64,000 bases of DNA from Variovorax paradoxus (GTDB lineage Bacteria; Pseudomonadota; Gammaproteobacteria; Burkholderiales; Burkholderiaceae_C): NCBI RefSeq assembly GCF_022009635.1, contig NZ_CP091716.1:5105501-5169500 (forward strand), given 5' to 3'. The notes under the pieces are model-generated. The model did no database searches. It saw only the letters and a list, made by a program, of their open reading frames with translations, and had not been told where the DNA came from. This document shows positions 6,376 through 10,503 of this stretch, one piece after another (the first letter of the stretch is position 1; each line of letters begins with the position of its first letter). Position numbers and translations under genes: made by a program.

Positions 6376-6561
6376 GAACCTGCCGCCTAGTCTCTGGTCA
6401 ATGAAGCCTTTCAGTTTGCCGAGGCGTGGCCAGGGGCGCCATATCGCGCATGGCATAGGACTGGGTGCTTTCTGTTAGGGGCACGCTCACGCCGCTGTGG
6501 AAGCTGCATTTGTTGGCGCTCCGCGGAACTTCATGCCGCATGGCACGGCTATTTCGCCGGG

Positions 6562-6616
6562 TTCTTCTCTAGAGTGGATGCCCCTGTCACCCGGCACCCC
6601 ACCAAGGGGAGAAGAA
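6562..6616 (+). other. Possible stem-loop in leader of orphan small gene
   Basis: TTCTTCTC (6562-6569) and GAGAAGAA (6609-6616) are perfect complements, and CCCT (6582-6585) can pair with AGGG (6605-6608) inside. The 416-base gap 6376-6791 otherwise holds no gene I can support. It may be a structured leader for the gene at 6792, or remains of an older repeat. Confidence 0.3.
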
Positions 6617-6632
6617 AGGCGCGACACACCCA

Positions 6633-6655
6633 CCACCCAGATGTTTGAAAGGCTG
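6633..6655 (+). repeat. Copy 1 of a 23-base near-repeat
   Basis: CCACCCAGATGTTT, four bases, then GGCTG. The same layout with one change in the first block is found at 7221-7243. The two copies flank the orphan small gene and the large inverted repeat. An ATG inside this copy opens a 31-codon frame (6641-6736) rich in Arg, without a ribosome binding site. Confidence 0.45.
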
Positions 6656-6791
6656 CTTGCCTCGCGGCAGGTCGTCGGTGCGAAAGCAGCGATGCGGATG
6701 CGAGGTATCAAAAGGCGACGGCCGAGGTGCGACTAACACCCCGACCGTCTGACCAAGTTCGTGCACCAACCTTGGAAGGAACCGCACAAAA

Positions 6792-7115
6792 ATGGCTACC
6801 AAGACTATAGCCCGGCCAACTACGCCGGTAGCTTCCGAAGACAACGCCCAAGACCCGGCGGATCTTCTCGAAAACACCCTCTCTCAACTCGAAGCACTCC
6901 TGTGGCTCTGCCACGGGGAACACATCGACTGGTGCAGTGGTGACGGGCCTCGGCAACTGGACAACGTGTTCTGGCTTGCGGCTGATCTCTCTCGCAAGGC
7001 TGGAGAGTTGTTTCAGATGAGTGAGATCGGGCGGCGCGGGGTGCCGGCTGAACCCCAAACCCCACAGCCGCTGTCATCGTGCACAGGGCGCCGGGTGCTC
7101 CCCGCAGCGAAATAA
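6792..7115 (+). CDS. Orphan small protein, C-terminus supplied by inverted repeat
   Basis: A 107-residue hypothetical protein starting MATKTIARPTTPV, with GGAAGGA at 6774-6780. Residues 25-75 look like a compact helical domain with conserved-looking Trp, Cys and His (LLWLCHGEHIDWCSGDG), followed by a charged helix ending GELFQMSE. I do not recognise the family. The last 13 or so residues (SSCTGRRVLPAAK) are encoded by the left arm of the inverted repeat at 7079-7174, so the natural end may have been near codon 78 and replaced when the repeat arrived. Could be a phage- or island-derived regulator; function unknown. Confidence 0.55.
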   Translation: MATKTIARPTTPVASEDNAQDPADLLENTLSQLEALLWLCHGEHIDWCSGDGPRQLDNVFWLAADLSRKAGELFQMSEIGRRGVPAEPQTPQPLSSCTGRRVLPAAK

Positions 7116-7174
7116 AGGAGGAAGCCGCAGGCCGGGGGACATTCGCGGAGGGGAGTACCCGGCGGCCTGTGCAC
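7079..7174. repeat. Large imperfect inverted repeat (REP/MITE-like)
   Basis: Two 33-base arms, 7079-7111 and 7142-7174, match at 29 of 33 positions when one is reverse-complemented; both outer ends are GTGCAC. The 30-base loop contains ATAAAGGAGGAAGCC. Three CCCGAACA units follow at about 7180-7212. I recall similar palindromes scattered in Variovorax genomes, so this is probably a dispersed non-coding repeat rather than a terminator: it has no T-run. Confidence 0.7.
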
Positions 7175-7220
7175 GCGCCCCGAACAAGCGTCCCGAACAG
7201 ACGCCCCGAACAATCCCCTG

Positions 7221-8433: not shown

Positions 8434-8468
8434 CCGCAGTTCATGATCGGACGCTCATCACAATGGCC

Positions 8469-8474
8469 TATAGT
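8469..8474 (+). promoter_or_regulatory. Possible -10 box for sce7726 gene
   Basis: TATAGT ends 10 bases before the ATG at 8485. With no ribosome binding site visible, transcription from here would give a leaderless or nearly leaderless message. No good -35 was found. Confidence 0.3.
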
Positions 8475-8484
8475 TGGCGCCGCC

Positions 8485-9102
8485 ATGGCTGCCAACCCGA
8501 CACGTACACCACCACAGAAAACGCGAGATCGCGACGTGCGTGCGCTGGTACTGAAAACGGTCCTGGCGGACCACGCGAAAGATGCCAACGCGCGCATCGT
8601 CGAAGAACTGGGCCTGGAACACGGCTCCTGCCGTGTCGACATTGCCGTGGTCAATGGCTTTCTGCACGGCTTCGAACTGAAGAGCGACGCGGACAACCTT
8701 CTCCGGCTGCCGAGGCAGGTCGAGGCCTATTCACGCTCGATGGACAGAGCCACGCTCGTCGTCGGTGAGGAGCATCTGGCGACAGCAGAGGCAATGCTGC
8801 CGCTCTGGTGGGGCATCAAGGTTGTCCGCTCAAGCACCCGCGGCAGGCTCAAGCTGGAAACACATCGCCGATTGAGCAACAACCCCGCCCCCTCTCTCTT
8901 TCACATGGCGCATCTGATGTGGCGGATCGAGGTGGAAGAAGTGCTGCGCGCCGGTGGCGCCAACTCAAAGGAATTGAGCGTCAACCGCGCCGGCCTCTAT
9001 CGCCTTTTTGTCGACTCGATGCAACCGAGCGACGTTCGGCGAAGCATCAGGGAAGCGCTGAAGTCCCGTAGAAACTGGCGACATCCCGCACGGCCTTCGT
9101 GA
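8485..9102 (+). CDS. sce7726-family protein, PD-(D/E)XK nuclease-like
   Basis: A 205-residue protein matching the sce7726 family as I know it: an N-terminal helix (RDVRALVLKTVLADH), then VEELGLEHGSCRVDIAVVNG, GFELKSDADNLLRLPRQVEAYS, and LVVGEEHL ahead of a WWG turn. Asp52, Glu64 and Lys66 in VDIAVV...FELK have the spacing of a PD-(D/E)XK nuclease core, which I infer. An earlier in-frame ATG at 8443 is possible. The 3' end overlaps the convergent beta-family gene by 56 bases. In other genomes sce7726 genes sit beside sce7725-type partners that resemble beta proteins, so the two probably form one module. Function is not established; defence against foreign DNA is a hypothesis. Confidence 0.8.
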   Translation: MAANPTRTPPQKTRDRDVRALVLKTVLADHAKDANARIVEELGLEHGSCRVDIAVVNGFLHGFELKSDADNLLRLPRQVEAYSRSMDRATLVVGEEHLATAEAMLPLWWGIKVVRSSTRGRLKLETHRRLSNNPAPSLFHMAHLMWRIEVEEVLRAGGANSKELSVNRAGLYRLFVDSMQPSDVRRSIREALKSRRNWRHPARPS

Positions 9103-10144
9103 TGTGGTGATTCGTCGCGACGGACGGCCACGTGGACGCACCGCCTGTGCCCTCTGCACCCGTTGCGCAGTCATGGATGAAAGCGTCGCCCCATGAGTAC
9201 TGCGGCCCCATGAAGAATGGAGGGACGGCCCCGATGATGTTCTGGCACATCGTCTGGTACTGCGCTCTGCCGTAGCGCTTGACCTGCGCGCCTACGTAGA
9301 TGATCCATTCGTCATCCACCGTGTACTTGATCTTGGCATTGGGGTCGACCATTCGCGGATCGAGCTCTCCGGTGTTCTGGCTCGAAGTCCCGTAGTCCCC
9401 ATAGGTGGGCTTTCTCGCCGATCCGGAAAGCGTTTGAAGCAGTTGCTTGTACGCGAGCCATTCATACCGCGGGGCTCTGCCATACGGGCGGAATTGCGCC
9501 GCGCCAAGAACCACCGGGAATGTCGTGCCAACGACGCTGAGCGTTCGCCACGGCGCGGCGGACAGCGCCAGCAAGCACGCCGACCACATCGACACCTGCA
9601 TCGGGATGGACGTGGCGATTGACGATTCGAGATCGATCACCAGATCGATGAATTGCAGCGGAATACCGAGTGCGGCAATCAATGCGCCCAGCGACGGCTC
9701 GAGCGTGGGGCCGAAATCATCAGCTTCCAGACGAATACAAATGCCTCTTTGCATCCGGCCAGCAACGGCTGAAACTGCTGCAAAATAAGCCGGATGCCGT
9801 TGAAGGCCGATCACCGGTATGGCCGAGCAACCAGCCTGCTCGGTTTGCCAGAAGACATGCTCGATGTGGTGGCGCCCGTCTGAAAGCAGGCTGGCTCCGT
9901 CCAGATAGGGACTGTCGACAAAGCACGGGCGCCCGCCCCATTTGGAGAAAAGCTTGTCTCCAAATTTTGCCAAGTGCTCATCAAGTGACCGCATCGGCGC
10001 TTCGGTCTCGAAATTCCATCCCTCGGTTGGAATTTCAAGAAGAGGTGTCACCCAATTCTTGACCGACTCACTCAGCCGCATCAACGCTTGGTACTCCCCC
10101 ATGCGCCATTTAAGAACGGGAACGTAGTGATTGTGATCGAACAA
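9047..10144 (-). CDS. Beta family protein (T4 beta-like), partner of sce7726
   Basis: A 365-residue protein reading MFDHNHYVPVLKWRMGEYQA from a TTG start. AGGAGA (10150-10155) is ideally placed before that codon. The opening (YVPVLKWRMGEY) and the PLLEIP strand are the signature of the phage T4 beta-protein family, which I believe sce7725 also resembles. Residues about 95-220 alternate strands and helices with QVS and TTFP segments like a TIM-barrel-type repeat; the end carries YGRAQYQTMC and SWGDAFIHDCATG. The gene is visibly less GC-rich than its neighbours, suggesting transfer. Molecular activity of the family is unknown. Confidence 0.82.
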   Translation of the reverse strand: MFDHNHYVPVLKWRMGEYQALMRLSESVKNWVTPLLEIPTEGWNFETEAPMRSLDEHLAKFGDKLFSKWGGRPCFVDSPYLDGASLLSDGRHHIEHVFWQTEQAGCSAIPVIGLQRHPAYFAAVSAVAGRMQRGICIRLEADDFGPTLEPSLGALIAALGIPLQFIDLVIDLESSIATSIPMQVSMWSACLLALSAAPWRTLSVVGTTFPVVLGAAQFRPYGRAPRYEWLAYKQLLQTLSGSARKPTYGDYGTSSQNTGELDPRMVDPNAKIKYTVDDEWIIYVGAQVKRYGRAQYQTMCQNIIGAVPPFFMGPQYSWGDAFIHDCATGAEGTGGASTWPSVATNHHITKAVRDVASFYGTSALP

Positions 10145-10157
10145 TTCTCTCTCCTCT

Positions 10158-10177
10158 ATTCGCCAAAATTAGCGAAT
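10158..10177 (-). promoter_or_regulatory. Inverted repeat upstream of beta-family gene
   Basis: ATTCGC (10158-10163) and GCGAAT (10172-10177) are perfect complements separated by the AT-rich octamer CAAAATTA, just upstream of the ribosome binding site. It could be an operator in the promoter; TAATTT within it on the minus strand could be a -10. The rest of 10178-10311 shows nothing else. Confidence 0.35.
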
Positions 10178-10311
10178 TGATCCTAGAGAAGAATTGCTCT
10201 TGGAAAAAGAAACGAACTCCCGAGAAATGGAAAAACCCCGCTGTCAGCCAATTAGCTCACACAGAAATGCAGGTGCCATTTCAGGTAGGCAGCGAGCGAA
10301 CAACCGTTTGC

Positions 10312-10503
10312 TCAGTCGCCGCGTTCTTTGCGCTCCCGCGCCCTGCGCACCTGCCGGCTCTCGCCGGCCTGCGAAGCGATGCGGTCTTTCTCGCGTTTCT
10401 TGGCGGCCCGCTTCTCGCGCATGCGCTTGCCCAGCACATAGCTGCCGAGGCCGGTGACCACGGCGATGAAGATGCCGATGACGCTGACGTCGATGCCGCC
10501 CAT
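10312..10503 (-). CDS. Small single-span membrane protein coupled to parC
   Basis: A 63-residue protein, [20 protein letters not shown] opening, with one membrane helix (residues about 8-24) and a strongly basic cytoplasmic tail (REKRAAKKREKDR, QVRRARERKERGD). Its ATG overlaps the parC stop as TGATG, so translation is probably coupled. No family recognised. The charged tail could bind nucleic acid or membrane lipids; that is speculation. Confidence 0.65.
   Translation of the reverse strand: MGGIDVSVIGIFIAVVTGLGSYVLGKRMREKRAAKKREKDRIASQAGESRQVRRARERKERGD

Follow-up and report, generated by a model that had tools for sequence, protein, structure and literature searches.

The window analyzed here, the whole 64,000-nucleotide stretch C1:5105501-5169500 of the 7.95-Mb Variovorax paradoxus genome, contains two convergent genes that encode a sce7726-family protein and a Beta protein and overlap at their 3' ends. 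As judged from sequence, this pair is the beta/cII half of the gop-beta-cII locus of satellite phage P4 without gop, since it comprises the same two families in the same convergent order. It may represent a mobile two-gene antiphage module, that is, a gop-beta-cII core lacking gop in which a nuclease would act under a TIM-barrel sensor, an interpretation that we hold at about an even chance. The earlier note on this DNA proposed an undescribed system; the pair instead consists of the known gop-beta-cII families in their known order, with a Beta that is likewise related to PD-lambda-2C. The beta and cII families and the defensive role of gop-beta-cII are already known, and the bare pair is a variant without gop. 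What appears to be new, as none of it occurs among the literature matches listed, is the common core of gop-beta-cII and PD-lambda-2, the predicted TIM barrel of Beta, and the fixed register of the overlap. Neither the bare pair as a system nor a link between PD-lambda-2 and sce7726 was found among the listed matches, with subscription papers mostly outside their scope, and in the excerpts available sce7726 occurs as an annotation label only, once beside a "beta family protein" in a table row. For two families whose names are merely a locus tag and a phage gene letter, these results supply fold predictions and a role open to testing, and they join two separately reported defense systems through one core.

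Family Assignment and Predicted Folds

The sce7726-family gene, a homolog of P4 cII, lies at 8485-9102 on the plus strand and encodes 205 amino acids, as does its nearest database protein; an in-frame ATG at 8443 (+) is an alternative start that would give 219 amino acids. Its product scores 145.7 bits against NCBIfam NF033832 (cut-off 70) and 83.3 bits against the PADLOC profile cll (PDLC02989). The Pfam family PF26915 is borne by its listed database relatives, and the window protein has no PF26915 match in the Pfam copy searched. Consistent with the PD-(D/E)XK-like nature suggested for it in the earlier note, the predicted model matches the PD-(D/E)XK core fold, and the residues of the D...ExK catalytic motif (D52, E64, and K66; codons within 8638-8682, plus strand) are conserved without exception across the alignment (49 of 49 sequences), with D52 on model strand 49-56 and both E64 and K66 on strand 60-66. 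The protein models as a small PD-(D/E)XK nuclease whose C-terminal domain is helical, and it probably has nuclease activity. When solved structures were searched by sequence, sce7726 gave two matches at E ~0.9, neither of them useful, and Beta gave none.

The Beta gene occupies 9047-10144 on the minus strand, starts with TTG, and encodes 365 amino acids. Its product scores 281.5 bits against PF14350 (cut-off 27), and its best PADLOC match is PD-Lambda-2_C (177 bits), followed here by P4 beta (42 bits). The label of a T4-beta family must be corrected, as PF14350 is the Beta family of satellite phage P4, to which P4 beta belongs, and kinship with T4 is ruled out; the "beta protein" of PMC11514479, as far as the available excerpt goes, is unrelated. 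The best named relatives of both window proteins come from Variovorax, and a scan of genome contigs with a single protein retrieved one relative, from Variovorax sp. SG517. Beta models as a TIM barrel with a (beta/alpha)8 fold at a predicted local distance difference test score of 94.0, and its conserved D77, R138, D171, and R226 are located at or near the C-terminal ends of the model strands. Such an arrangement would also suit an enzyme for the synthesis or breakdown of a small molecule such as a nucleotide signal, with the nuclease serving as an independent arm or being activated by the molecule; the presence of ligand-bound Can2 and Cdn1 among the VIA neighbors of sce7726 points in the same direction, and we regard this alternative as quite unlikely.

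Relationship to gop-beta-cII and PD-lambda-2

According to the available excerpts of Rousset 2022 (PMC9122126), which also underlie the other statements from this paper below, gop-beta-cII protects E. coli against lambda and P1. The P4 proteins score 231.7, 621.5, and 375.9 bits against the PADLOC profiles gop, beta, and cll, respectively, and P4 cII exceeds the sce7726-family cut-off (151 versus 70 bits). In P4, gop and beta share one strand and cII is convergent to them. The P4 locus resembles the window pair in its homologous Beta (PF14350 in both) and cII/sce7726 proteins, in the tail-to-tail placement of beta and cII, and in carriage by a mobile element. However, identity between the corresponding proteins is just 20-21%, and beta and cII are separated in P4 by a 27-base pair (bp) gap with an annotated putative terminator, whereas the window genes overlap by 56 bp with no terminator-like site. 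A further difference is gop itself, which lies upstream of beta in P4 and has no counterpart in the window: a phmmer search started from P4 gop (E up to 1, open reading frames of at least 60 amino acids) matched P4 alone among the loci compared, including the window pair (L001), and the gop profile gave a single match in the whole genome, located elsewhere at E 0.08, a loose limit that also yields matches in 5 of 14 control genomes. These searches, together with the empty-site comparison described below, revealed no gop-like third gene in the window. A closer counterpart is found in the Rac-SA53 prophage of E. coli, where the two genes are annotated as "beta" and "CII phage-like protein." Like the window pair, this pair is bare and convergent with the same 30-bp register (see below); it differs in being prophage-borne, with an overlap of 41 bp and identities of 26% (Beta) and 40% (sce7726). 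It was detected in 93 of 5426 genomes at 94 places, all chromosomal, and constitutes the handiest test object.

The second related system is PD-lambda-2, whose third component (C) is described as related to a P4 phage antitoxin (Vassallo 2022, PMC9519451, again as given in the excerpts available). The window Beta corresponds to component C (177 bits), whereas no operon of components A (HigB-like) and B (helix-turn-helix plus M78 peptidase) was found with it: there is no M78 gene upstream of Beta, the PD-Lambda-2_B profile has no match at E 0.1 in the whole V. paradoxus genome, and no component A turned up for the window pair, although the A profile was not searched in this genome. A link between the two systems is provided by L172, in which components A, B, and C (142.6, 515, and 262.6 bits) are followed by a convergent sce7726 gene that overlaps C by 56 bp. 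As a complete PD-lambda-2 joined to a convergent sce7726 gene, this locus implies a core common to the bare pair and the two named systems. L038, in turn, represents PD-lambda-2 without sce7726 (A and B by PADLOC, Beta by PF14350). In the tree of Beta proteins, the branch that includes P4 beta (100/99) has eight rows, and its other seven members all occur with an M78 gene, so that P4 may have lost an M78 peptidase under midpoint rooting.

The sce7725/sce7726 operons (NF033831 and NF033832; L041-L043, with the NCBIfam scan covering L041 only) likewise give sce7726 a fixed neighbor, sce7725, but they differ from the window pair in being co-directional, in the greater length of sce7726, and in the presence of a third gene. 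Relationship of sce7725 to Beta as a distant homolog was not supported, as hhalign returned a suggestive but non-significant match confined to an N-terminal motif (E 0.027, probability 1.8%), and sce7725 has no match to the sce7726 profile. The third gene of the operon at L041:5049-7926 encodes a protein of ~350 amino acids with paired cysteines near its start, and the same gene order occurs in L042 and L043. Several variants were also observed among the PD-lambda-2-like and M78-Beta operons. A DUF6932 protein takes the first-gene position of HigB at L029:3395-3871 (by Pfam, with L029 the only locus scanned), and open reading frames that start like it occur in L173 and L177, so that such a protein holds the first place in some of these operons. 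A tandem of two M78-Beta units is present at L176:5596-9163. In L030, L031, L035, L039, and L176, the gene immediately before the M78-Beta operon, in a gop-like position, encodes a protein with hydrophobic and probably membrane-spanning segments; those of L030, L031, L035, and L039 have no phmmer match to gop (E up to 1) and resemble it in hydrophobic segments only.

Co-occurrence, Partner Exchange, and the Proposed Mechanism

Searches at the phylum, genus, class, and order levels covered 398, 61, 369, and 399 genomes, respectively, in partly overlapping sets. Across the 398 phylum genomes, Beta was detected in 13, sce7726 above the cut-off in 14 (19 at E 0.001), and both in 11. The expectation that the two families travel together is thus borne out, with both in 10 genomes against 0.39 expected (p 8e-16; own genome excluded, not corrected for kinship), and all 10 other pairs in this sample are convergent. 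After removal of fragments (L180 at a contig end and two pieces in L181), 33 Beta rows were reduced to 30 intact genomic loci, none of which lacks a partner; the fragments G375:C60, G375:C34:125-586, and G905:C4 and the sub-cut-off G921 were not fetched. Partners vary among these 30 loci: seven have a convergent sce7726 gene only, ten combine it with an M78 (ImmA/IrrE) gene directly upstream of Beta, eight have the M78 gene but lack sce7726 over a distance of 1.5 kb, and five have a co-directional sce7726 gene, giving a convergent arrangement in 17 of the 22 loci with sce7726. The M78 calls come from profiles built from ten of these proteins themselves; independently of these profiles, Pfam placed M78 above its cut-off in eight of nine scanned proteins, the ninth (L034) reaching 21.0 versus 22 bits and scoring 156 bits as PD-Lambda-2_B. 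M78 is almost missing from pairs of phages and viral contigs fetched via sce7726 or Beta, with one weak match in 28 rows; this viral set kept 80 of 111 confirmed loci, and L044, L055, and L056 show no Beta. Architecture changes on the Beta tree number 9, compared with 21.4 in shuffles, and the computation shows that the sequences of Beta and sce7726 co-diverge (L062, whose Beta is cut by a contig end, was left out of this set).

An antiphage role, as suggested in the earlier note, is plausible given that the related gop-beta-cII and PD-lambda-2C are reported in defense (PMC9122126 and PMC9519451). By analogy with these systems, the bare pair may confer phage defense, with Beta as a TIM-barrel sensor or licensing subunit whose conserved pocket would read an infection cue. 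Beta would control sce7726 (cII), the effector nuclease, possibly by direct contact, and sce7726 would then attack nucleic acid, either that of the phage or that of the host in abortive infection. Elsewhere, Beta is paired with other effectors, namely the M78-peptidase toxin-antitoxin operon of PD-lambda-2 and gop in P4. An alternative scheme would be a toxin-antitoxin pair in which Beta binds a toxic sce7726 nuclease and infection destroys or diverts Beta, whereupon the nuclease kills the cell. That P4 gop is toxic without beta (Ghisotti 1990, as cited in PMC9122126) implies that beta can act as an antitoxin, and the close pairing and co-divergence reported above would agree with such a scheme. 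On the other hand, PD-lambda-2C is dispensable for toxin neutralization yet required for defense against lambda-vir (PMC9519451), the eight genomic Beta loci with no nearby sce7726 are difficult to reconcile with a dedicated antitoxin, and few antitoxins would be expected to resemble Beta, a TIM barrel of 365 residues with conserved polar positions. A toxin-antitoxin pair is accordingly rated as possible, though with the chances clearly against it. The reported PD-lambda-2 result and the partner exchange seen here favor Beta as a sensor or licensing subunit over a plain antitoxin.

Convergent Overlap and Its Fixed Register

The convergent open reading frames with a common 3' end described in the earlier note are present, with an antiparallel coding overlap of 56 bp at 9047-9102. 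All 39 representative pairs are convergent, and 35 of them overlap, with a median of 41 bp. These representatives were obtained by reducing 97 loci to 43 at 90% identity and setting aside four without Beta (L041-L043 of the sce7725 type, and L055 at a contig end). The own genome (L001-L004 and L008) and the short loci L010-L027 had been left out beforehand, so that the count of 39 excludes the own co-directional pair described below, and the four other loci of this orientation joined the collection only afterward. L010-L022 were refetched as L028-L043, and L023 and L024 (weak sce7726, no Beta) as well as L025-L027 were lost. In an enlarged set, 39 of 44 convergent pairs overlap, 32 of those 39 in the same reading-frame phase. 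The codons for sce7726 Trp198 and Beta His347 (9076-9106 in the window) have their first bases 30 bp apart, and exactly this distance recurs in 23 of the 39 pairs that could be scored, the remaining five of the 44 lacking an aligned Trp/Phe/Tyr or His. The pairs sharing it span Beta identities of 20-77% and sce7726 identities of 29-85%, and include proteobacterial chromosomes, the E. coli Rac-SA53 prophage, and a Mycolicibacterium phage. Among pairs below 60% Beta identity, 17 of 35 have the 30-bp distance, and the others range from 12 to 326 bp.

Common descent, with few insertions or deletions where the DNA codes on both strands, suffices as an explanation of the register, which, as a sequence feature, shows that the genes have long been joined and overlapping and by itself is no demonstration of regulation. 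Defense modules are mostly co-directional operons, and a convergent coding overlap conserved to such depth sets this one apart from the usual pattern. A more far-reaching idea, which is tentative and rather doubtful, is that a single defense superfamily with exchangeable effectors (sce7726, M78/toxin operons, and gop) uses Beta as its shared infection sensor, and that the overlap is regulatory, with read-through from either gene yielding antisense RNA to the other and balancing nuclease and sensor until infection. The antisense control envisaged in the earlier note is possible, and the conservation of the overlap makes it somewhat more credible, but an essential role of the overlap is contradicted by the existence of a co-directional clade of five loci, which implies that it is not indispensable, and by the non-overlapping arrangements of P4, L082, L179, L030, and L031. 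As a two-gene cassette, the pair is small enough for direct dissection, and antisense balancing is testable.

Mobility and Local Sequence Features

In five of six same-genus stretches (L167-L171), the flanking genes are 11-50 bp apart, compared with ~1.88 kb in the window; the sixth, L166, was dropped because it aligned on one side only. The empty site in these five relatives implies that the pair arrived as a two-gene insertion, located approximately at 8435-10315, and this insertion contains just the two genes. Many homologs occur in prophages, phages, and satellites, which might suggest that the pair serves the mobile element itself through recombination, DNA processing, or superinfection control rather than general defense. 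Such a function appears very unlikely, as the insertion in the window consists of the bare pair, P4 is said not to require gop, beta, or cII (PMC9122126), and the kin systems defend (PMC9519451 and PMC9122126).

Several local features recorded in the earlier note were recovered. Outside the overlap, Beta has a GC content of 58.4% and sce7726 of 61.4%, versus 67.5% for the window. The Beta TTG start is preceded by AGGAGA, a ribosome-binding-type site by sequence reading (10150-10155, minus strand), and by the dyad ATTCGC-N8-GCGAAT (10158-10177, minus strand), which occurs once in the window and may be an operator or a 5'-leader hairpin. The locus L160 (the same locus as L009), at the same insertion site as the window pair, has an ATG start for Beta and, by eye, a similar dyad, with one C-G pair changed to T-A and one outer pair weakened. 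Comparison with L160 indicates purifying selection on both genes, with ratios of nonsynonymous to synonymous substitution of 0.13 and 0.09. The fractions of changed synonymous sites are 0.15 and 0.29 in the overlap (only 13-14 synonymous sites) versus 0.65 and 0.72 outside it, a reduction expected from dual coding. No sigma-70-type promoters or intrinsic terminators were found around the pair, where shuffles lead one to expect 0.5 and 2.1, respectively.

The same genome carries a second pair at L008:8700-12581 (C1 ~2.4747-2.4786 Mb), which is co-directional with sce7726 followed by Beta. This arrangement also occurs in L161, L163, L164, and L165, which belong to three further genomes within the genus, and the five loci form one clade (100/100). 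The co-directional block diverges from a peptidase-like gene and a gene for a 208-amino acid protein, with a helix-turn-helix gene in between (called in L161 and L164). In L161, the only locus scanned, the peptidase-like product scores 20.7 bits for Pfam M48, barely above the cut-off, and 18.6 for M78, below it; its PADLOC scores are 28.7 bits for capP and 26.9 for PD-Lambda-2_B. In addition, ~750 bp at 6465-7214 of the window are replaced by ~4 to 20 bp in L009/L160, L167, and L168, indicating another insertion, just upstream of a gene labeled by eye as metallo-beta-lactamase-like.
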